NCBI RefSeq assembly: GCF_947259025.1
Contig: NZ_CAMYKO010000005.1
Coordinates: 620,001-684,000 of the forward strand
Direction: 5' to 3'
Source: an uncultured Methylophaga sp.
GTDB taxonomy: Bacteria > Pseudomonadota > Gammaproteobacteria > Nitrosococcales > Methylophagaceae
Length of the DNA stretch: 64,000 bases
Below are positions 2,828 through 51,420 of the stretch, piece after piece. The notes below the pieces were generated by a model. The model did not search any database. It worked only from the letters and a program-made list of their open reading frames with translations, and was not told where the DNA came from. The position numbers were made by a program, and so were the translations under genes. Position 1 is the first letter of the stretch. Every line of letters starts with the position of its first letter.

Positions 2828-2995
2828 GAAAAGCTCCTTAATCAGTCCGGCAATAAAAAGCCGGGGCAGCCGCAATGGGTCAAATAGTTCTGATTTCATC
2901 ATAAACAGATCAGCGTTGCTGATGACAGCACGGTTTTTAGCTATCTTATAAGCATCTGTTTTATAAAATAATACTGCCGTTAAAATTCGCTTTTC

Positions 2996-3011
2996 TACCC
3001 CTTTCAGAGTA
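2996..3011. promoter_or_regulatory. NarL-like 7-2-7 inverted repeat upstream of the cupin gene
   Basis: The sequence TACCCCT-TT-CAGAGTA has TAC/GTA ends 10 bases apart. The left half matches the NarL heptamer TACYYMT exactly; the right half matches 5 of 7. It lies 78 bases before the cupin start. Similar dyads occur at 11384, 18435 and 32554. This is the weakest of the four. Confidence 0.4.
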
Positions 3012-3088
3012 AGCCTTCTTGAGAATTGTCGCGCTATTGGCAGCAGGATTTAATGCGGGTGTCATTCACGACAACAATGAGGTAGACA

Positions 3089-3430
3089 ATGAAATACAAA
3101 CAGAACGCAATTTCTGACCCGCAGCCTTCAATGGGTATTGATGGTGTCGACGCCACACTGGGCGATACCTTTGTTTCAGATAGCAAAGATAAAACCCTGT
3201 GTGCCGGTTTTTTCCACCTGAATAAAACGGATAAGCCGCTGGTTTACACCTATGACTACGAAGAAATGAAAGTCATTGTCGATGGCGAATTCGTGATCAG
3301 TGATGAATCAGGCTACAAGGTTCATGCCAAGCCTGGTGATGTTTTTTATTTTGGTGACGGCGAAACCATCGTGTTTGAAACCCCGTCACGCGGCGTCGGT
3401 TTCTTTACCGGACAGCGTCAGCCTATCTAG
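3089..3430 (+). CDS. Small cupin-domain protein (EutQ-like)
   Basis: This 113-residue protein is a single cupin barrel. The pattern VIVDGEFVISDESGYKVHAKPGDVFYF matches the usual G-x5-HxH...PGD arrangement in spacing, but most canonical metal ligands (HxH, E) are absent, so metal binding is doubtful. The best resemblance is to the EutQ-like cupins found near amine-metabolism genes. GAGGT lies upstream of the ATG. It stands alone, with a strong terminator after it and a NarL-like dyad before it, which ties it tentatively to the response regulator next door. The substrate is unknown. Confidence 0.7.
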   Translation: MKYKQNAISDPQPSMGIDGVDATLGDTFVSDSKDKTLCAGFFHLNKTDKPLVYTYDYEEMKVIVDGEFVISDESGYKVHAKPGDVFYFGDGETIVFETPSRGVGFFTGQRQPI

Positions 3431-3493: not shown

Positions 3494-4138
3494 TCAGCCC
3501 CGTGACTTCTGCTGATGACGCCAGACCGCGGCTTCCAGCCGGCTGGTGAGATTCAACTTACGCAATAGATTCTTGATATGCACCTTGACCGTGGTGTCGC
3601 TGATCCCCAGCCTGCGGGCAATATTCTTATTGTTCATGCCTTCTGCCAGACATTCCAGGATTTCAGTCTCACGCTCAGTCAGATGAACGTTATCACTGGT
3701 TTTGGATTCCGGCTCGAGCACGGCTTTTTTCAGCACTTCGTTCAGACATTCCTGCAGCACTGTGACACCGCCATAGGCCTTTAACAGATTGGCACGCAGC
3801 TCTTCCGGCTCCATGTCCTTGAGCAGGTAACCGTCAGCGCCGGAGCGCAGCGCTTCCAGCAGATCATCCTCGGCATCGGACACGGTCAAAACCACGATAT
3901 GCGCCTTGCACTCGTTTTGCTTGAAGCGGCGCAGGGTTTCCAGCCCGTCCATCCCCTTCATGTTCAAATCCAGCAGGATAATATCGGGTTGCAGCTCCGG
4001 CTCCAGTTCCAGGCCTTCAAGGCCAGAGGCCGCCTCCCCCACTACCTCGAACGCCGGATCATCGGAAATAATCTGACCCACCCCTTTTCGAAACAGCGGG
4101 TGATCGTCTATCAGCATGACTCTTATGGTTTCGCTCAT
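3494..4138 (-). CDS. NarL/FixJ-family response regulator
   Basis: This 214-residue protein has a receiver domain (acidic pair in IDDHP, phospho-acceptor Asp in LLDLNMKGMDG near residue 58, Lys in LLKDM) followed by a LuxR-type helix-turn-helix (LTERETEIL ... NIARRLGISDTTVKVHI). It closely follows the NarL layout. The start at 4138 leaves a 13-base gap after the sensor kinase gene; an upstream in-frame start at 4198 would overlap the kinase and add a non-conserved leader. It is the obvious partner of the kinase at 4152-6017 and the best candidate to bind the TACYYMT-like dyads in this window. The signal is unknown. Confidence 0.93.
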   Translation of the reverse strand: MSETIRVMLIDDHPLFRKGVGQIISDDPAFEVVGEAASGLEGLELEPELQPDIILLDLNMKGMDGLETLRRFKQNECKAHIVVLTVSDAEDDLLEALRSGADGYLLKDMEPEELRANLLKAYGGVTVLQECLNEVLKKAVLEPESKTSDNVHLTERETEILECLAEGMNNKNIARRLGISDTTVKVHIKNLLRKLNLTSRLEAAVWRHQQKSRG

Positions 4139-4151
4139 GTTTCTCTCTCTT

Positions 4152-6017
4152 TTACTGCGCCAGCTTGGGCATAAACACCAGGCTGACACGGGTCCCACCG
4201 TAACGACGGTTCATGACTTCAACCTCTCCCCCCAGATTATAAGCCCGTTCTTTCATAATCGCCTGACCGTGGTGGTCGTAGGTTGGAGAGGCCGGGGTCA
4301 AACCCACGCCGTCATCATCAATCAATAGTTCTATCGCGCCACTACGCTGCTTGTGCATCAAAATATTCACGTTGCCGGCACCGGAGTGACGCACAATATT
4401 GGATAAAGCCTCACGCACCACGTGCAGCATGTGGAATTCTTCGTTTACTGTCAGCCGGCAGTTCACCAGGCGATTATCGAGGTTGATATTGATATCCGAG
4501 CGCTGGGAAAACTCGTCGATAGCAGCCTGAATCGCATAGCCCAGCCCTCGCAGATCCATATGCACGCGGAAGGTCGTCAACAACTCGCGCAGCTCACGGT
4601 AAGCGTTATCCAGGCCTTCGCGCAGCTCACTGATGACAGCAGCCAGCTTTTCATCATCTTTCTGACTGATATTGCTATCGGCGACTTTAACCCGGTTTAA
4701 TGAGGCGGATTGCAGCCGCGCCACCTGGATCTTCATAAACGATAAAGACTGTGCCAGTGAGTCATGCAGCTCACGGGCAATGGCCGAGCGTTCTTCCAGC
4801 ACCGCCAGCCGCCTTCCTTCTTCATCGTGGCTTTGATACTTGGCGACCATGGCCAGTAAATGGGCGGTGATTTCCAGGATCTTGATCTCGGAATCGTCGA
4901 GCAAGCGGCCACGCTCCATTTCCACCAGCAATATGCCGATGCCATTACTGGCACCGGAAAAAGACACAGCCAGGCAACTGACCAGCTGAAACTCGTTACT
5001 GACCTCATCAAAGTTAAGCACGCCGGAAGACATCAACTCATTAAACTGGGCGTCATTGAGCGTGTTGGGTTTGTGATGCGAAAAAATCACCCGCTTAGTG
5101 GTGATCACGGCGGCATCATCGGTATAGATCAGCGCGGCATTATTAAAGTTGAAGGTGCGTTCCAGCCCGTAAAGCATTTTGAGCAGCATGCGCTCGCTCA
5201 TCACATCTTCACTGGCGCTTTCGATAAAACGCAGCAGGAAATCCTGCGCCCGAACCAGGGTTTTAACGTGTTCGCTGGTACGGTTAGCCCAGTTAACTTC
5301 AGCGTCAGCGCTCTGCAACTGCGCCGTCAGCTCGGCCACGCGGTTCTCTACCAGGGCAAACTCGTCAGCACCATCGCGCTTGTCATCAGTGCGAACCTTC
5401 TGACTGATAAAGCGCAGGGTGTTATCAATGCGGTCAACCAACAGCCGACGGGCGGCTATCGCAATTACCAGCACACAGCTCACCACAAACAGCAGACTGA
5501 TCGATTGTAATAGCCCGATCACCGCCTGTTTGATCTCGGCATCGCGTTTCAGCGCCTTGTTAAGGGTGTCATAGGCTTCGGCAATCCGTTCTGCCATGCG
5601 CAACTGTGCGGTCAGACGCATGTTATAGCCGGCGACCTGGCTGAAACTAGTCTGCAATTTTTCCAGCTGGCGCACCGCGTCATGGATCTCGGCATCATCC
5701 TGTCTGAGCATCCACACTACGTCGGGATCGTCCACCCTCAGGTAGTTTCGCTGCATTTCCGTCAGTGTCTCATCCGCCTCTTCCAGGCTGATGGCGTTGA
5801 TAAAGGATAACTGCCGGTGCCAGTAGACTTTCTGGGTGTTGACTTTGTCTATGGCTGCCTGGCTGGAAGGGATATAATCAAGCAAGAAGAAACTGCTTGC
5901 CTGCATTAACAACACAGTCATCAGCATGCACCCCAACAGCAGCAGTAGTTTGGCGTAAAGGGTGTGCTGGCTGATGTGGTTCAGCCAGGCCGAGATTTTT
6001 TTCATGCGTCCGGTCAT
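4152..6017 (-). CDS. NarX-like sensor histidine kinase
   Basis: This 621-residue membrane kinase has a transmembrane helix at about 20-45, a periplasmic helical region to about 165, a second membrane helix at about 168-190, a HAMP-like segment, a GAF-like region at about 260-390, a HisKA_3 domain with the phospho-acceptor His in IARELHDSLAQSLS, and an ATPase domain with IDDDGVGL. The HPK7/NarX type agrees with the NarL-type partner 13 bases downstream. The nitrate-binding P-box of true NarX was not recognised, so the ligand is probably different. The ATG at 6017 or the one at 6005 could be used; neither has a clear ribosome site. Confidence 0.92.
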   Translation of the reverse strand: MTGRMKKISAWLNHISQHTLYAKLLLLLGCMLMTVLLMQASSFFLLDYIPSSQAAIDKVNTQKVYWHRQLSFINAISLEEADETLTEMQRNYLRVDDPDVVWMLRQDDAEIHDAVRQLEKLQTSFSQVAGYNMRLTAQLRMAERIAEAYDTLNKALKRDAEIKQAVIGLLQSISLLFVVSCVLVIAIAARRLLVDRIDNTLRFISQKVRTDDKRDGADEFALVENRVAELTAQLQSADAEVNWANRTSEHVKTLVRAQDFLLRFIESASEDVMSERMLLKMLYGLERTFNFNNAALIYTDDAAVITTKRVIFSHHKPNTLNDAQFNELMSSGVLNFDEVSNEFQLVSCLAVSFSGASNGIGILLVEMERGRLLDDSEIKILEITAHLLAMVAKYQSHDEEGRRLAVLEERSAIARELHDSLAQSLSFMKIQVARLQSASLNRVKVADSNISQKDDEKLAAVISELREGLDNAYRELRELLTTFRVHMDLRGLGYAIQAAIDEFSQRSDININLDNRLVNCRLTVNEEFHMLHVVREALSNIVRHSGAGNVNILMHKQRSGAIELLIDDDGVGLTPASPTYDHHGQAIMKERAYNLGGEVEVMNRRYGGTRVSLVFMPKLAQ

Positions 6018-6064: not shown

Positions 6065-7444
6065 ATGAGTTTGATTTTATTTTCCATGGTAATGCTCAGT
6101 ACCATTTTTATCCTGATATTCGGTTTCTGGTGGGACAGTTCTGCCCCGTTCAAAGTCCATCTCTCTGCACTGGTGACGATATTTGCCGCCGCGGTCAGCG
6201 CCTTTATGGTGGTCAGTGTCTATCCCCGCCTCCAGCGCCGCCTGCAATTACAAACACCAAACAAGCTCGACAGCGTCGCCTGGGGCCAGGACATCTCCAG
6301 CAAACTGTCGTCGCCAGCCGCGGTGGTAGATGGCTTTAATATCAAGTTTGCCAACAATGCCTTCCTTAAAGAGCTGGGCCTGTCTGGCATGCAGGAGTTA
6401 ATCAGCGACATGCCGATTACCAACCTGGTGCATCCCAGCAACCATGATGAACTCAACCACTTTCTCAGCAAGCCCGACTCCGACAGCAACCGTACTTTGG
6501 CGCTGCGTATGCTCTACGTTGATGGTACGACAATCCCCGTTCATATGTCATTGTCACCGCTCGACCGCGGCCAGCAACCCGATATGAGCCTGCTGCAGTT
6601 TTCACTGACCGCCCCGCGGCCTGACGCTGACAACGAGGTTGAACCCTCGCAGTATCAACTGGTTTTGGATCGCATCGACCAGTTGGTATTCCAGGTCGAT
6701 GTCGATCTGAATCTGATCTTCGTCAACCAGGCCTGGCAGCGACTGCTTGATTACAGCAGCGACGAGACCCTGAACCACGCCCTGTTTGACTTTATCCACC
6801 CTGAAGACCTGCCGCTGGCCGAAGCACGGTTGCAGCGGCTGAGCCAGGGCAAACGCCAGCAAACCCAGTTTGAAGTCCGCCTGATTGCTAAAAACGGCAT
6901 GTCGCAGTGGTGCGAAATGCGCGCTACAACCACCACCAGCCTCAAGGGCGAACGCAGCAGCGTTATCGGCACCCTCACCGATATCAGCCGTATGAAACAG
7001 GCATCAGCCGGACTCAAGGCCAATGCCCGCACCTACACCGAGATGATCATGTCGCGGATTCCGGCGATGGTGTATCGCTGTAAAAACGATCGCAACTGGT
7101 CACTGGAATATGTCAGTAACGGCTGTCTTGAAGTCACTGAGTACCAGCCCTATGAAATGGTCAGAACACCCAGCACCTCTTATTTAAGCCTGGTGCACCC
7201 CGACGATCAGCTACCCTCCTGGGAATACGTGCAGCGCCAATTGGCTAAGCAGCAATGTTTCCAGATGGTTTACCGCCTGATCACCCGAACCGGTAAGACC
7301 AAGTGGGTGTTTGAGCAGGGCCGCGGCGTGTTCTCCGGCTCCGATGAGCTGTTGTCGCTGGAAGGCGTGATCATCGACTTGCAGTGTGATGATCACAGCC
7401 TGTTACAGCAGGGCTTTAGCGATATGCTGACAACAGGCACATAA
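6065..7444 (+). CDS. Membrane-anchored multi-PAS protein without an output domain
   Basis: This 459-residue protein begins with two membrane helices (about 3-23 and 30-52) and then has three PAS-like segments at roughly 70-175, 195-315 and 325-445, the last two with PAS/PAC signatures (FIHPEDLPLAEARL; LVHPDDQLPSW). No kinase, GGDEF, EAL or HTH domain follows. It is divergent from the sensor kinase and their 5' ends lie about 48 bases apart, suggesting a sensory helper for that system. The ATG at 6065 was preferred over a TTG at 6017, which would overlap the kinase start. Its role is inferred from position only. Confidence 0.75.
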   Translation: MSLILFSMVMLSTIFILIFGFWWDSSAPFKVHLSALVTIFAAAVSAFMVVSVYPRLQRRLQLQTPNKLDSVAWGQDISSKLSSPAAVVDGFNIKFANNAFLKELGLSGMQELISDMPITNLVHPSNHDELNHFLSKPDSDSNRTLALRMLYVDGTTIPVHMSLSPLDRGQQPDMSLLQFSLTAPRPDADNEVEPSQYQLVLDRIDQLVFQVDVDLNLIFVNQAWQRLLDYSSDETLNHALFDFIHPEDLPLAEARLQRLSQGKRQQTQFEVRLIAKNGMSQWCEMRATTTTSLKGERSSVIGTLTDISRMKQASAGLKANARTYTEMIMSRIPAMVYRCKNDRNWSLEYVSNGCLEVTEYQPYEMVRTPSTSYLSLVHPDDQLPSWEYVQRQLAKQQCFQMVYRLITRTGKTKWVFEQGRGVFSGSDELLSLEGVIIDLQCDDHSLLQQGFSDMLTTGT

Positions 7445-11301: not shown

Positions 11302-11383
11302 AACACTGGCTCCGTTTTATTAGCAGGTGTGTTAAGAGCAAAATTAGCGCAATTAGCAGGGTGAAAAAATTCTCTTGATGGCG

Positions 11384-11399
11384 TACTCCCTTGGGAGTA
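11384..11399. promoter_or_regulatory. Perfect NarL-like 7-2-7 dyad upstream of dmmD
   Basis: TACTCCC-TT-GGGAGTA is a perfect 16-base inverted repeat; each half matches TACYYMT at 6 of 7 positions. It lies 83 bases before the dmmD ATG. The preceding ATTCTCTTGA also occurs before the related dyad at 18435. Confidence 0.65.
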
Positions 11400-11432
11400 A
11401 AAATCCGGCTTCAGAGCACGGTTTTATCTGTT

Positions 11433-13187: not shown

Positions 13188-13511
13188 TCAGGCTTCTGCG
13201 GTGCTGAGCTTGAGACCAATAATGCCGATAATAATAAAGCCGATGCTGATAAGCCGGCTTGGATTGGTGGCTTCATCAAACAACATGATCCCCAGAATCA
13301 CGGTACCCACCGCACCGATCCCCACCCAGACACCATAAGCCGTGCCTACCGGCAGATCACGCATGGCAAGCCCCAACAGCCAGAAACTGAGCAGCAGTGT
13401 TACCACGGTCGCTACCGTCGGTATGGGTTTGGATAAACCATCACTGTATTTGAGTCCCACTGCCCAGGCCACTTCCAGCAAGCCGGCAATTAACAGAATC
13501 ATCCAGGCCAT
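13188..13511 (-). CDS. gdx: Guanidinium exporter Gdx (SMR family, SugE type)
   Basis: This 107-residue four-helix small multidrug resistance protein has the SugE/Gdx signature: the membrane Glu in AGLLEVAWAVGLKYSDG, LPVGTAYGVWVGIGAVG, and a C-terminus ending in IGLKLST as in E. coli SugE. Gdx proteins export guanidinium in exchange for protons. The guanidine-II riboswitch directly upstream supports this specificity over general multidrug export. AAAGGAT at 13517-13523 precedes the ATG. Confidence 0.95.
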   Translation of the reverse strand: MAWMILLIAGLLEVAWAVGLKYSDGLSKPIPTVATVVTLLLSFWLLGLAMRDLPVGTAYGVWVGIGAVGTVILGIMLFDEATNPSRLISIGFIIIGIIGLKLSTAEA

Positions 13512-13516
13512 TTTCT

Positions 13517-13565
13517 ATCCTTTCGGGTCGTCCCGTGAGTTTAGCTGTGACCAGGGTCGTCCCTG
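13517..13565 (-). promoter_or_regulatory. Guanidine-II riboswitch (mini-ykkC)
   Basis: On the minus strand two short hairpins follow each other, CAGGG-ACGA-CCCTG (13552-13565) and CGGG-ACGA-CCCG (13524-13535), both with an ACGA loop, which is the hallmark ACGR loop of guanidine-II RNAs. The second is followed at once by the ribosome site AAAGGAT (13517-13523) and the gdx ATG at 13511. Stem length, spacing and the gdx target all fit. Control is expected at translation initiation: guanidine stabilises loop-loop contact and frees the ribosome site. Confidence 0.93.
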
Positions 13566-13583
13566 CAGCTTAAGAAAAGGGTA

Positions 13584-14714
13584 TCAAGCGCTGGCAATCC
13601 CGGCTTGATCGATCTGATCCGGCAATAAGAAACGATTGACCGTCAGACCAAAACCCGTCATCGCCGGCAATTGCCGCGGCCGTGTCAGCAGCGTCATCTC
13701 AGTGACGCCCAAGTCACGCAGGATCTGGGCACCGATGCCGTAATGCTTAAGTTTGACCGTATCGCTATCCATTGACTCGCCAACACCATCATCATGCATC
13801 AGTAGCAATACACCATGGCCCGCAGCGCGTATCGCCTGCATTGCCTCCACCACACTCCAGCTGTGCCCGCGGCGGTCACTGTCCAGCAGGTCGAGGCCAT
13901 TAAACGGTGCATGCACCCGCACAAGCGTATCCTGGCTACTGTCTATCTCGCCAAACACCAGCGCCTGGTGGCTTTCACCACTGTTGATATCAAGGTAATG
14001 ATACAACTCAAACTCACCGAATATCGTTGTCAGACTGCGCTGAGACCGGCGTACAACCACCTGTTCATGCTGATGGCGATAAGCGATCAAGTCCGCAATG
14101 GTACCTACTTTTAATTGGTGCTGCCGGGCAAATGTCAGCAGGTCAGGCAGTCTGGCCATGCTGCCGTCATCATTCATGATTTCGCATATCACTGAGGCCG
14201 GTTCACGGCCGGCCAGGGCCGCCAGATCACAACCGGCTTCGGTATGTCCGGCCCGGCTCAGTACACCGGCATTCTGTGCCATCAGCGGGAACACGTGACC
14301 GGGGCTGACAATATCAGCGGGTTTGGCCTGTTTCGCTACTGCAGCTTGTACGGTACGGGCCCGGTCGGCGGTGGATATACCGGTGGTGACACCATCCGCC
14401 GCCTCGATCGACACGGTAAAGTTGGTACCCAGGCTGGTACCGTTATGACCCACCATTAATGGCAGTTCGAGCTGGCGGCAGCGCGCTTCGGTCAGGGTCA
14501 GACAAATCAGGCCGCGACCATGCATGGCCATAAAGTTAATGGCATCGGCATCCACCGCATCGGCGGCCATGATTAAGTCGCCCTCATTTTCCCGGTCTTC
14601 ATCATCCATCAATACCACCATCTTGCCCTGGCGGATAGCGTCAATAATGTCTTCGATCGGTGAAATCGAAGTTTTTGTGGACCTGGATGCCAATGGAATC
14701 GCTGAATGACTCAT
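13584..14714 (-). CDS. ribBX: RibBX: DHBP synthase fused to a degenerate GTP cyclohydrolase II domain
   Basis: The N-terminal half (about 1-210) is 3,4-dihydroxy-2-butanone 4-phosphate synthase, with DDEDRENEGDLIMAA and RAGHTEAGCDL, which makes the four-carbon unit of riboflavin from ribulose 5-phosphate. The C-terminal half aligns with GTP cyclohydrolase II, but the three zinc-binding cysteines expected in its active region are missing (VRVHAPFNGLDLLDSDRRGHSWS contains none), so it cannot be a normal cyclohydrolase II. This is the RibBX form common in proteobacteria. The start at 14714 has AAGGAGG upstream. It lies 10 bases after folE2. Confidence 0.92.
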   Translation of the reverse strand: MSHSAIPLASRSTKTSISPIEDIIDAIRQGKMVVLMDDEDRENEGDLIMAADAVDADAINFMAMHGRGLICLTLTEARCRQLELPLMVGHNGTSLGTNFTVSIEAADGVTTGISTADRARTVQAAVAKQAKPADIVSPGHVFPLMAQNAGVLSRAGHTEAGCDLAALAGREPASVICEIMNDDGSMARLPDLLTFARQHQLKVGTIADLIAYRHQHEQVVVRRSQRSLTTIFGEFELYHYLDINSGESHQALVFGEIDSSQDTLVRVHAPFNGLDLLDSDRRGHSWSVVEAMQAIRAAGHGVLLLMHDDGVGESMDSDTVKLKHYGIGAQILRDLGVTEMTLLTRPRQLPAMTGFGLTVNRFLLPDQIDQAGIASA

Positions 14715-14724
14715 CACAGCCTCC

Positions 14725-15513
14725 TTACAAGCGGTCGATCAGGGCGTAGGCAGAGTGATTGTGGATCGACTCAAAGTTCTCACACTCCACTCTGAAGCCG
14801 CCGATTGCTTCGGCCTTGTCCAGAGCACCAGCAATATCGCGCACCAGGTCTTCGACAAACTTGGGGTTGTCATAGGCATATTCGGTGACGAACTTTTCAT
14901 CAGGCCGTTTAAGCAAACCGTAAAGCTCGCTTGAAGCCTGCTTTTCCACCAGTTGAATTAACTGATCCAGGGTCAGGCTGTCATCGACTTCGACTTCCAC
15001 CGTGACCAGGGAGCGCTGATTGTGGGCGCCATAATCAGAGATCTTTTTGGAACAGGGACACAGGCTGGTGACCGGGATCTCGACTTTAACGGTGAGGGCA
15101 AACTGCTCGCCCAGTTCTGCCCTGAGGCTGACGTCATAGTCCATCATGCTGCTGACGCCGGACACCGGCGCGGCTTTTTCCAGGAAAAACGGAAAGCGCA
15201 TGGTGACATGGCCGCTTTCGGCCTCCAGCCGTTCCAGCATGGCCTGCATAAAATCTTTCATATCGGCAACGGAAAACACCTGTTCGGGGCGTTCCAGCAG
15301 CTCCACAAAGCGTGACATATGGGTGCCTTTAACATGATGCGGCAGGTGCACGTACATATTAAAATCAGCCACTACGCGGATGGGGCTACTGTCATTGCTT
15401 TGGAAAAATATCGGGTAACGTAAGGATTTGATGCCCACCTGATCGATCGCCAGACGGCGCTGGTCAGGGGTGTTCTGAACATCTTCGAGACTGGCGGTAA
15501 GCGGCAGGTTCAT
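14725..15513 (-). CDS. folE2: GTP cyclohydrolase FolE2 (type IB)
   Basis: This 262-residue protein has family signatures MYVHLPHHVKGTHMSRFVE, MRFPFF and the catalytic Cys in VTSLCPCSKKISDYGAHNQRS. FolE2 converts GTP to dihydroneopterin triphosphate, the first step to tetrahydrofolate, and does not depend strictly on zinc. The product supports THF-linked C1 transfer such as that of DmmD. folE2 and ribBX form an operon of two GTP/C4 cofactor enzymes. Upstream lie two tandem structured RNA units ending in terminators, which may control it. The ATG at 15513 is preceded by AAGGATTAGCGCT. Confidence 0.95.
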   Translation of the reverse strand: MNLPLTASLEDVQNTPDQRRLAIDQVGIKSLRYPIFFQSNDSSPIRVVADFNMYVHLPHHVKGTHMSRFVELLERPEQVFSVADMKDFMQAMLERLEAESGHVTMRFPFFLEKAAPVSGVSSMMDYDVSLRAELGEQFALTVKVEIPVTSLCPCSKKISDYGAHNQRSLVTVEVEVDDSLTLDQLIQLVEKQASSELYGLLKRPDEKFVTEYAYDNPKFVEDLVRDIAGALDKAEAIGGFRVECENFESIHNHSAYALIDRL

Positions 15514-15563
15514 AGCGCTAATCCTTATCTTATGGACTTTGCAGTCAAAATTCGCCGGTTATC

Positions 15564-15776
15564 AAAAAAGGAAGGTGAACTGCACACTGCCTGTGCCACA
15601 TGCCATGCAAAACAAAGGCTACTGTGGCAGTTCACCCTCAACGTTCCAACAAGAGAACGGTTACAGGATAACCATGAAGAAGCTGAACATCTGTTCATCA
15701 AAATCAGCTTCGGATTCATTATCTAAGGGGGCCGGCACGGCAACAATTCCAAAGAAGGCTTACTACCTAGGGGTTA
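15564..15776 (-). ncRNA. Candidate structured RNA, copy B (proximal to folE2), with terminator
   Basis: Read on the minus strand it starts at CCTAGGTAGTAA (about 15776) and contains a hairpin (GGTAGTAA... capped by TTCTTTGGAA ...TTGTTGCC), a GAAGCTG/CAGCTTC stem flanked by AGATAA and TTATCC, a GTTC/GAAC stem and a Rho-independent terminator: 10-bp outer stem GGTGAACTGC/GCAGTTCACC at 15574-15636, then TTCCTTTTTT. Copy A at 15826-16003 has the same order of elements. Similarity between copies includes small indels, so it is not kept as codons. It could be a tandem riboswitch/attenuator for folE2, or one of two sibling small RNAs. Confidence 0.6.
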
Positions 15777-15825
15777 GTTGCCAATAAAATAAAAGGGTGA
15801 GCCTGCCACGATTCATGGTGATGCC

Positions 15826-16003
15826 AAAAAAGAAGGGGGTGCTGTCGCAGACAGTCACCCCCTTAAAGTCCCAACGAGAGAACAGGTTAGAGGATAACCA
15901 TGAAGAAGCTGAATCTGTTAACAATAACCAGCAGCTTCAGTGTCATTATCCGAGACGCTAACCCTGGCAACAATTCCGAAGAAGTATTACTACCTAGGTT
16001 ATA
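15826..16003 (-). ncRNA. Candidate structured RNA, copy A (distal to folE2), with terminator
   Basis: On the minus strand it begins at ACCTAGGTAGTAA and forms GGTAGTAA/TTGTTGCC capped by a TTC-TTCG-GAA tetraloop. A nested stem follows (GGTTAG/CTAACC outside, GGATAA/TTATCC, then GAAGCTG/CAGCTTC), then a GTTC/GGAC stem, and it ends in a strong terminator, GGGGGTG plus CTGTC closed by GACAG plus CACCCCC (15835-15862), followed by TTCTTTTTT. The pairing partners of the outer stem are better preserved here than in copy B. It lies just past the porin stop at 16042, so its terminator may also end porin transcripts. Confidence 0.62.
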
Positions 16004-16041
16004 GTCTGGCTGCTTATCCTCATGCGTCTCAGTGCGGCGCT

Positions 16042-16740
16042 TTACAGAGACTTAGAGATACTGAAAATAAAGCGGCCGTCTGACAGATCATCGCCGAAGA
16101 TATCTTCAGCATCACCGTCGGTATCTGTGTAGGTAATATCAAAACCGAAGCCGGCAAATTCTTTGGAGACGCCAACATAATAATTGTTGTAGCCGTCTTC
16201 AGCGAAGGCATCATCATCCAGGTCGTAATAACCCACACCACCAGCCAACGAGAAGCCCATAGGCAAGTCGTAACCGGCATCGAGTGAATAATAGGTACCG
16301 TCTTCACCGCTACCTAATGCATCGCTGGAATGGGCTACGCCGACAGAGAAGATGCTGTAGCTTAAGGAGCCATAGACTTCATTGAAGTTGTAGTCTTCGC
16401 CGGGGAACATATAACGCAGTACGCCGACGTCATAGCCAATGCCTGAATCACCAAACTCACTGGCAAAACCGGCATAGATATCAATTTCGCTGCTGGCATC
16501 GTCACCGTAATCGACATTAGACGCCCAGGCGCCGGCATAAAAGCCGCTGCTGTGGCCGTAGTCGAAGCTGCCCGAGATAGCCGGATCTTCATCAGATTGT
16601 GAAATACCCCGCCATACATATTCAGAGGACAAAGCCACACTGGCACTGGTGCTATGCTGGCCGTCCTGGCTTTCCCAGGCCATTGCCGAGGCTGACATCA
16701 TCAGACCGCCGGCCATCATTAAAGTTAAGCTTGTTTTCAT
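16042..16740 (-). CDS. TorF-family putative porin (TIGR02001)
   Basis: This 232-residue outer membrane beta-barrel protein has a signal peptide (MKTSLTLMMAGGLMMSASAMA, cleaved about residue 21), alternating aromatic/hydrophobic strands, repeated YxGxW/YAG motifs (GFYAGAWASNVDYGDD; IDIYAGF) and a C-terminal strand ending in FSISKSL. SSEYVWRGISQSDEDPA is diagnostic of the TIGR02001/TorF family. The ATG has GAAGGA upstream. The family is often next to amino acid or amine uptake genes, as here. The exact substrate is unknown. Confidence 0.88.
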   Translation of the reverse strand: MKTSLTLMMAGGLMMSASAMAWESQDGQHSTSASVALSSEYVWRGISQSDEDPAISGSFDYGHSSGFYAGAWASNVDYGDDASSEIDIYAGFASEFGDSGIGYDVGVLRYMFPGEDYNFNEVYGSLSYSIFSVGVAHSSDALGSGEDGTYYSLDAGYDLPMGFSLAGGVGYYDLDDDAFAEDGYNNYYVGVSKEFAGFGFDITYTDTDGDAEDIFGDDLSDGRFIFSISKSL

Positions 16741-18387: not shown

Positions 18388-18434
18388 TTCGAACTTAGTC
18401 CTTTGTGACAGCGTTGGTAATTCTCTTGAGTGAG

Positions 18435-18450
18435 TACTCCAAAGGGGGTA
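18435..18450. promoter_or_regulatory. NarL-like 7-2-7 dyad upstream of the permease
   Basis: TACTCCA-AA-GGGGGTA, both halves 6 of 7 to TACYYMT, with the same ATTCTCTTGA preceding sequence as the dmmD site at 11384. It is 159 bases from the permease start. Confidence 0.55.
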
Positions 18451-18513
18451 AATGCGCTGTTCTGTGTGAGTGGCAAGTATTTCCCTGCCCGAGACAGAAA
18501 AATGCAACAGACA

Positions 18514-32569: not shown

Positions 32570-32634
32570 GAAGAAAGCTTTAAAACACGATAAATTATTG
32601 TTTTATATTTAGTTTTGTTTGGGGTCAGGCTTTA

Positions 32635-51021: not shown

Positions 51022-51069
51022 AAAAAAACCACCCGAAGGTGGTTTTCTGTTCGATTGGTGGAGGCGGCG
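51022..51069. repeat. Attachment-site copy at ssrA (attR-like), including the ssrA terminator
   Basis: It holds the minus-strand ssrA terminator (AAACCACC-TTCG-GGTGGTTT with a T run) and the last 14 bases of ssrA. This copy is joined to the intact tmRNA gene. Confidence 0.85.
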
Positions 51070-51420
51070 GGAATCGAACCCGCGTCCGCAGATCCTCCGC
51101 CCTTGGATCTACATGCTTATTCCATCTTTTGATTTAACTGGCTGCAACCCGATGGACAGGGCAAACAGACAGCGAGCTAGTCAAAGTTTTAGTCTCTTCG
51201 CACCTAGCTTACGTCGAGACGATCTTGTGTGAGTCGACGCCCGATACCAGTCGCACAAGCACGGGTCTGGTCGGACGGCATTTGCTGGTTATTAAGCAGC
51301 TAGTGCGTAGTTGTTATCGTTAGCAACTATTTTAATTTTCCAGTCTGTTTTACGAGAAGAACTGAAATACTCGGCATGCACCTCAGGTTTCGCGACCCCC
51401 GTCGAAGCCAAGTCGCCCCC
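51056..51420 (-). ncRNA. ssrA: Transfer-messenger RNA
   Basis: The 5' end GGGGGCGACTTGGCTTCGAC and the 3' end TTCGATTCCCGCCGCCTCCACCA (split here by its known tRNA-like pairing) form the alanyl tRNA-like domain. The tag frame starts at about 51324 and encodes ANDNNYALAA followed by two TAA stops (51289-51294), close to the E. coli tag. It rescues stalled ribosomes with SmpB, whose gene lies 370 bases away on the same strand. Length is about 365 bases and CCA is encoded. Confidence 0.97.

Follow-up and report, generated by a model that had tools for sequence, protein, structure and literature searches.

A predicted tandem promoter-and-terminator cassette before a second folE2 gene of Methylophaga, with a candidate link to NarL-type control

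In the stretch of 64,000 nucleotides analysed here (the window), which is part of the 2.7-Mb genome G000 of an uncultured Methylophaga sp., a second folE2 paralogue and the ribBA-type gene that follows it are preceded by two tandem units, each with its own predicted promoter and terminator. A reading that we believe about as much as we doubt is that the units combine a regulon promoter under NarL-type control with a terminated leader that meters folE2-ribBA. Each unit would then be a complete promoter-plus-terminator cassette, in which a NarL-type response regulator would bind a 7-2-7 palindrome and activate a sigma-70-type promoter common to several genes of a putative methylamine cluster. 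RNA polymerase would start at GAAGCTG, transcribe a 5' hairpin, a conserved segment designated C2 and a short variable hairpin, presumably halt for the most part at the intrinsic terminator, and transcribe folE2-ribBA by read-through. Since only read-through would reach folE2-ribBA, these tetrahydrofolate and flavin cofactor genes would be switched on with the regulon, at a reduced level. The RNA lies outside any Rfam family, and the promoter, the terminator and the small-RNA or leader logic are all of known kinds. An orphan RNA motif is in this way turned into a predicted regulon of one two-component system, one promoter motif, several methylamine-cluster genes and an operon of cofactor genes accompanied by an additional terminated RNA, which makes testable the matching of cofactor supply to methylamine flux in methylotrophs. 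Among the top-ranking titles on Methylophaga regulation and small RNAs, on folE2 in methylotrophs and in attenuation, and on NarL with methylamines, from a literature collection in which subscription papers are poorly covered, none reports these units.

The tandem units and their linkage to the second folE2

The number of units before folE2 is two, both on the minus strand, 227 nt apart and each with its own terminator, and folE2 of the window is thus preceded by two predicted promoters and two terminators in series. The window contains the motif CCTAGGTAGTAA exactly twice, at 15998 and 15771 of the minus strand, and for TTCTTCATGGTTATCCT with up to two mismatches it contains two matches as compared to 0.01 expected. 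The copies share a 40-nt repeat (85% identity) at a distance of 227 nt and a 29-nt repeat (97%) at 226 nt, with a mean column identity of 76% when copy A is aligned to copy B. Downstream lie the folE2 paralogue encoding GTP cyclohydrolase FolE2 (14725-15513, minus strand; NCBIfam NF010200, 297.9 bits, cut-off 215) and the ribBA-type gene (13584-14717, minus strand; NF010626, 531.9 bits, cut-off 513). The tandem units with their own terminators had been described as noncoding in an earlier note on this DNA, whose coordinates proved correct and whose sequence elements are all present, namely the GGTAGTAA/TTGTTGCC hairpin, GAAGCTG/CAGCTTC, GATAA/TTATCC, a GTTC stem and two unlike terminator stems. 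Their noncoding nature was likewise borne out, as no frame is conserved across the copies on either strand and hence no leader peptide was found. A plus-strand small protein (IPKKDYYLG frame) was considered and rejected, since this frame is open in a few copies only, many contain stops and frame shifts, and changes within the block alter amino acids. Clades I and II of the copies have a short MVIL frame within C2, a frame that is lost in clade III. Two known RNA elements occur elsewhere in the window, a Guanidine-II riboswitch (13524-13568, minus strand; 32.7 bits, cut-off 32) directly behind the ribBA-type gene and before a SugE-type SMR gene (13188-13511), and a tmRNA gene (51056-51420, minus strand).

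Linkage of the cassette to this particular folE2 is brought out by comparison within the genus. While folE2 is present in 24 of 24 genus genomes searched, 15 of them carry a second folE2 at least 69% identical to that of the window (in two of the 15, a contig end truncates the gene), and the cassette, intact or damaged, precedes this paralogue, and only this one, in 15 of 15 genomes. A sequence-only model revealed 15 complete copies with 74-104 bits in 13 of the 24 genomes, besides damaged copies in G002 (47.9 and 20.9 bits) and G022 (45.8 bits), with every other listed match at 22 bits or less. The tandem pair was observed in G000, G013 and G002, and a single unit in the other genomes. In G022 (L052, 1276-1395), C2 and the terminator (the 3' half) are missing with the promoter before folE2 retained, which provides a natural comparison strain, and in G002 (L015, around 6450-7000) the first copy begins in an N run and the 5' half of the second is replaced by sequence with TTGACA. 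In G013 (L013), the distance between the starts of the copies is 461 nt and the interval contains a short ORF (MSIAINKSFKF...), which is absent between the window copies.

Searches of wider scope point to the same genus. Using blastn, the unit was found in 9 of 38 genomes, G000 included, all nine belonging to the genus, and in a class sample with stricter filters 2 of 274 genomes matched at E <=1e-4, again both of this genus. An exact scan of named genomes for a 20-nt motif gave 14 contigs, nine of Methylophaga and one of Gammaproteobacteria; the four others (Rhodobacteraceae, Lachnospiraceae, Pelagibacteraceae and Parabacteroides) look like chance, three of them fitting the model over 24-29 nt with 13.5-15.1 bits and one not at all. 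Plasmid and phage collections yielded no match to the unit. The 20-nt motif is also present in two viral contigs, with 21.9 bits over model positions 15-76 and 15.6 bits over positions 15-46.

The promoter type and its candidate regulator

Judged from its sequence, the 66-nt stretch that opens each unit has the appearance of promoter DNA rather than RNA, in that a NarL-type 7-2-7 palindrome is followed at fixed spacing by a -35 (TTGTTG) and a -10 (GATAAT). In copy A, the putative operator TATAACC-TA-GGTAGTA (15988-16003, minus strand, as all elements of both units), which has a poor left half, was recognized by pattern and matrix matches, and the -35 (15968-15973) is followed after a 17-nt spacer by the -10 (15945-15950), which corresponds to the GATAA of the earlier description. 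In copy B, the operator TAACCCC-TA-GGTAGTA (15761-15776) was recognized in the same manner, the -35 (15741-15746) by its position relative to the -10, and the -10 (15718-15723) by sharing the offset of other collected sites. The first half of the sequence model has gap-free matches before other genes as well, in the window at 2995 (plus strand) and 11400 (minus strand), and in relatives. Within the window, the same promoter type precedes a EutQ-like cupin gene without the terminator part (site 2995-3054, gene 3089-3430, plus strand; model match, collected sites and matrix), a gcvT-like gene (site 11341-11400, gene 11301-10153, minus strand; pattern, collected sites and matrix) and a permease gene (site 18392-18451, gene 18282-16813, minus strand; matrix). 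In relatives, another gene behind such a site encodes a protein starting MARDPKHDILFEPIQ, which we take to be trimethylamine-dehydrogenase-like. Non-folE2 genes have their ATG at 79-101 nt from the beginning of the site, a distance too short to accommodate the terminator part. The folE2 start in terminator-bearing copies is located at 223-268 nt, a range for correctly picked folE2 starts only, with three clade-II copies, G000_A, G013_A and G021 left out, and clade II leaders measure 148-158 nt from +1.

A blind test was provided by a matrix trained on 18 distinct non-folE2 sites, taken from other genes of other genomes. The five highest positions in the window were 11400 (minus strand, 57.7), 2995 (plus strand, 39.6), 18451 (minus strand, 33.4), then copy B as fourth (15777, minus strand, 33.0) and copy A as fifth (16004, minus strand, 32.0), followed by 32570 (6.9) and 31425 (3.5), both on the minus strand, with maxima of at most 2.0 in five shuffled windows. 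The weaker site at 32570 precedes an ORF (32483-32055) starting MGVDMQQAATANRQ, whose resemblance to globins was noted by eye only. A 34-nt promoter pattern with up to three mismatches occurs at 28 sites in 16 of the 24 genus genomes (reversed control, 0), a count that is a tally and no blind test as the pattern was built from sites already known. Across 37 collected sites (16 of folE2 and 21 others, 19 of the latter from the 34-nt pattern, which does not contain the -10, and two from the sequence model, which does), a -10-like hexamer is found at one offset, with a spacer 1 nt longer in G012. Its last position is T in all 21 non-folE2 and 15 of 16 folE2 sites (36 of 37), and A at position 2 is absent from three cupin sites; since the collected sites fall in about four gene families, these cases are not independent. 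The -35 is weak and only TTG-like, and a plain sigma-70 scan of 15400-16200 had neither unit promoter among its matches. The earlier note had treated the whole from CCTAGG to the terminator as a single structured RNA, which is not supported: the block from CCTAGG to TTGTTGCC and GATAA resembles operator, -35 and -10, recurring terminator-free before other genes. Its pair of alternatives, attenuator or sibling small RNAs, proved apt. Fixed-spacing promoter blocks can pass for RNA structure.

Genes near these sites suggest the physiological setting. The neighbourhood looks like a methylamine cluster and the host like a methylamine user, since the genes of the window include one for a type III glutamate-ammonia ligase (631.7 bits against a cut-off of 469.6), whose group includes gamma-glutamylmethylamide synthetase, together with genes for sarcosine-oxidase-like and glutamate-synthase-like proteins, both below their cut-offs, as in the N-methylglutamate pathway. 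The inverted heptamers of the palindrome read TACTCCC-AA-GGGAGTA before gcvT and TAACCCC-TA-GGTAGTA before folE2; the folE2 sites carry TAA or TAT where the heptamer has TAC, and the palindrome would be centred near -57, assuming the predicted start. For E. coli NarL and NarP, passages of PMC4549865 describe inverted heptamers with a 2-bp spacer and an engineered 7-2-7 site TACCCCTAAAGGGGTA, and the NarL heptamer is given as TACYYMT in passages of PMC4886647. The operator form is alike here and a NarL-family regulator is encoded in the window, but unlike the E. coli promoters, these sites precede methylamine-cluster genes and a folE2 paralogue and have a conserved second half CCTTCTTTGGAA before the -35.

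The regulator of these promoters is probably the NarL-family response regulator encoded at 3494-4198 (minus strand; NCBIfam NarL, 275 bits, cut-off 250). A NarX/NarQ-like sensor kinase is encoded at 4152-6017 (minus strand) and scores below either cut-off (204.5 of 578 and 204.4 of 553 bits). Twelve of the 24 genomes, each of them one of the 16 with sites, encode an orthologue of the regulator that is at least 71% identical; none was found in the eight genomes free of sites, of which four have a completeness below 90%. The orthologue was also not found in four genomes with sites, G001 and G003 (incomplete) and G022 and G038 (nearly complete), and hence another regulator may serve in the latter two. 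The regulator matches in G014, G012, G015, G007 and G002 contain one TAA, which may be just the end of a shorter gene.

Hairpins and terminators of the predicted RNA

GAAGCTG or an equivalent (GTTGCTG, GTAGCTG, GTGGCTG, GAAGTTG; CGAGGCT in G015) is located six nt past the -10, and hence the hairpin P2 (GAAGCTG/CAGCTTC) would form the 5' end of the RNA. With +1 placed from the -10 at the G of GAAGCTG, copy A is predicted to yield a transcript of 113 nt ending with the T-run (15826-15938, minus strand throughout) and copy B one of 148 nt (15564-15711). P2, identified by fold and swap test, spans 15905-15938 in copy A and 15679-15711 in copy B. The intrinsic terminator of copy A (15826-15864; fold and swap test) consists of a stem at 15864-15833 and a T-rich tail, and that of copy B (15564-15639; fold) of a stem at 15639-15571 and a T-run. 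Each of the 13 genomes with a complete core has a long-stemmed T-run terminator 41-58 nt before the folE2 ATG. A simple scan for terminators gave no match in 15400-16200, as compared to 0.8 expected from shuffles, probably because the stem of copy A is bulged and the loop of copy B is long.

Partner specificity was assessed by swapping arms among 15 copies, with damaged G022 and G002 excluded from swaps and alignments; the arms were hand-cut around conserved blocks, and the kinship of the sequences makes the shuffles optimistic. Native P2 pairing was matched by 6 of 5000 shuffles and within clades by 63 of 5000 (n=15), and native terminator pairing by 0 of 5000 (n=12, three clade-III terminators being left out of the 15). 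The hairpin GGTAGTAA/TTGTTGCC, which lies in the promoter part, has no partner specificity, with 1947 of 5000 swaps as good. This specificity of P2 and the terminator together with its lack in the first hairpin fits a transcription start at P2. The GTTC stem (P4) is unproven, since its region gave 0 of 5000 with one cut and 828 of 5000 with another. RNAalifold, applied to the MAFFT alignment of the 15 copies with the promoter part included, returned 0 consensus pairs, and as, of the stems tested, only the GAAGCTG stem and the terminators pass the swaps, the earlier claim of pairing conserved beyond sequence could not be upheld. Two further helices were considered and dropped: a closing helix between the 5' segment and the terminator arm, as in an antiterminator, was not partner-specific (2837 of 5000 swaps as good), so that this pairing revealed no conserved antiterminator, and GGTAGT/GTTATC, obtained from a column search, has few events in its favour and would require promoter DNA to pair with RNA.

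Attenuators and riboswitches are known leaders in which an intrinsic terminator precedes a biosynthesis operon, and here, too, a terminator sits between a regulated promoter and the genes; unlike in such leaders, a conserved leader peptide, a conserved antiterminator and an Rfam class were all not found. A tandem metabolite-sensing riboswitch for folate, flavin or an amine could be imagined from the location before a biosynthesis gene, from the tandem copies and from a terminator that could serve as expression platform. It is nevertheless quite improbable, as RNAalifold gives no consensus fold, the upstream block resembles promoter DNA, so that about 70 nt, containing one supported hairpin, are left ahead of the terminator, the pairing of 5' segment and terminator arm gave no conserved antiterminator and no sign of ligand sensing was found. 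Nor is there a plausible Rfam match: at gathering cut-offs nothing was reported at the units, and at E <=10 only mir-3126, mir-2763, sR45 and mir-3064 (E 1.4-7.4), chance-level microRNA and snoRNA matches far below their cut-offs, in agreement with the earlier view that no known riboswitch class applies.

The conserved segment C2 and the function of the RNA

C2 follows P2 (in copy A TTCATGGTTATCCTC, 15890-15904, and in copy B TTCATGGTTATCCTG, 15664-15678, both minus strand) and is, by shuffle comparison with start regions, complementary to ribosome-binding sites in general. Ten of 15 copies (six of clade I and four of clade II) have an identical TTCTTCATGGTTATCCT, which is changed in clade III, and CAGCTTCTTCATGGTTATCCT is found in 6 of 6 clade-I copies, where C2 is invariant over 21 nt, copy A included. 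C2 is the same in A and B copies while the loops and terminators diverge, and despite its invariance, full-length identity between the RNAs of G000_A and G013_A is only 67%. Simple metering does not account for the invariance of C2 in copy A as well, a copy that in the window is followed by copy B and not directly by a gene. The invariance, above all in copy A, suggests an RNA function besides, and hence gives rise to a close rival of terminated-leader metering, which we entertain tentatively: the units would encode two sibling trans-acting small RNAs of 113-148 nt, with C2 pairing with mRNA ribosome-binding sites and folE2 a mere neighbour reached by read-through. C2 invariance and the support for P2, both within the transcribed part, also speak against terminators that merely insulate upstream operons with a functionless RNA body, for which it can be said that upstream genes need a terminator and that they vary between genomes, and which is scarcely credible.

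By sequence, each sibling would have its own promoter and its own terminator. PrrF1 and PrrF2 are tandem sibling RNAs of this kind, each with its own promoter and terminator and with a common core; the two adjacent units resemble them in these respects and differ in regulator and core. C2 (UUCAUGGUUAUCCUC) is the reverse complement of the start region GAGGAUAACC-AUG-AAGAAG, and its preference for start regions over the interiors of the 52 window genes was reached by 0 of 200 shuffles for copy A and 11 of 200 for copy B. UCCU(C/G) is predicted to be unpaired in clade I, with a probability of at least 0.94 in five of six copies and 0.65 in window copy B; less favourably for small RNAs, this probability for UCCUC ranges from 0.34 to 0.67 in clade II, and three of the five clade-III copies have values of 0.22-0.25. 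Across the genus, complements of C2 with up to three mismatches occur at 36 places in 19 of 24 genomes (reversed control, 3). Eleven of these are the cassettes, and of the 25 near-complements outside them none is found in identical form in more than two genomes (twice in G007/G022 and once in G010/G011), which weakens the case for a conserved target.

A candidate for trans pairing is a gene of the same cluster for a small membrane protein (MNNNLKKRIQ..., L185-L195), whose start region pairs with C2 at a mean of -20 kcal/mol in 10 genomes, with a complementarity of 9-11 nt at the start codon in clades I and II. Against it, swapped partners were as good in 2588 of 10000 shuffles, clade III reaches only -12.7 to -15.8, G005, which does not have the RNA, has a similar start region in this gene (AACCATGAA; -19.6 with the G003 RNA), and the gene could not be located in G000, G011, G016 and G038, all of which have the RNA. 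No co-varying C2 target was found among those tried (near-complements, folE2 and the membrane-protein gene). Anti-Shine-Dalgarno small RNAs of the alpha-r14/NfeR1 type in rhizobia, the cuckoo RNAs, have according to passages of PMC10746234 a pyrimidine-rich segment complementary to ribosome-binding sites in nitrogen-linked control, and three hairpins each with CCUCCUCCC. The RNA studied here is likewise short with such a complementary segment, but unlike these it has at most one UCCUC, clearly unpaired mainly in clade I, and belongs to another lineage; membership in this family was rejected because a single UCCUC at most replaces the three hairpins.

Pairing of C2 in cis was evaluated as well. 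Closure of the folE2 ribosome-binding site by C2 in the read-through mRNA finds some support in swaps between C2 and the folE2 start region, where the native score was reached by 8 of 10000 shuffles (n=13), and in clade III, where the folE2 start region ranks high, with 0 of 8 (G001) and 1 of 12 (G017) other genes as good. Within clades, however, 1059 of 10000 shuffles equal the native score, and in clades I and II folE2 is ordinary or poor, genes as good or better numbering 19 of 52 in the window for each copy, 10 of 10 in G003 and 13 of 14 in G014, which renders such translational control very improbable. Unlikely, though not to the same degree, is a genus-specific dual-purpose RNA, in which a methylamine-responsive NarL-type regulator would drive duplicated units with a terminated RNA acting in trans on the ribosome-binding sites of transport or methylamine genes, and read-through would set the folate and flavin supply. 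Against the sequence just past the terminator, C2 was matched by 227 of 10000 shuffles overall and 3541 within clades (n=15). In G014 and G012, 274 of 500 shuffles were as good, and in some copies (for example L012 and L014) C2 is complementary to the first bases past the T-run, with 0 of 500 shuffles as good in G003 and 2 of 500 in G015 and G021.
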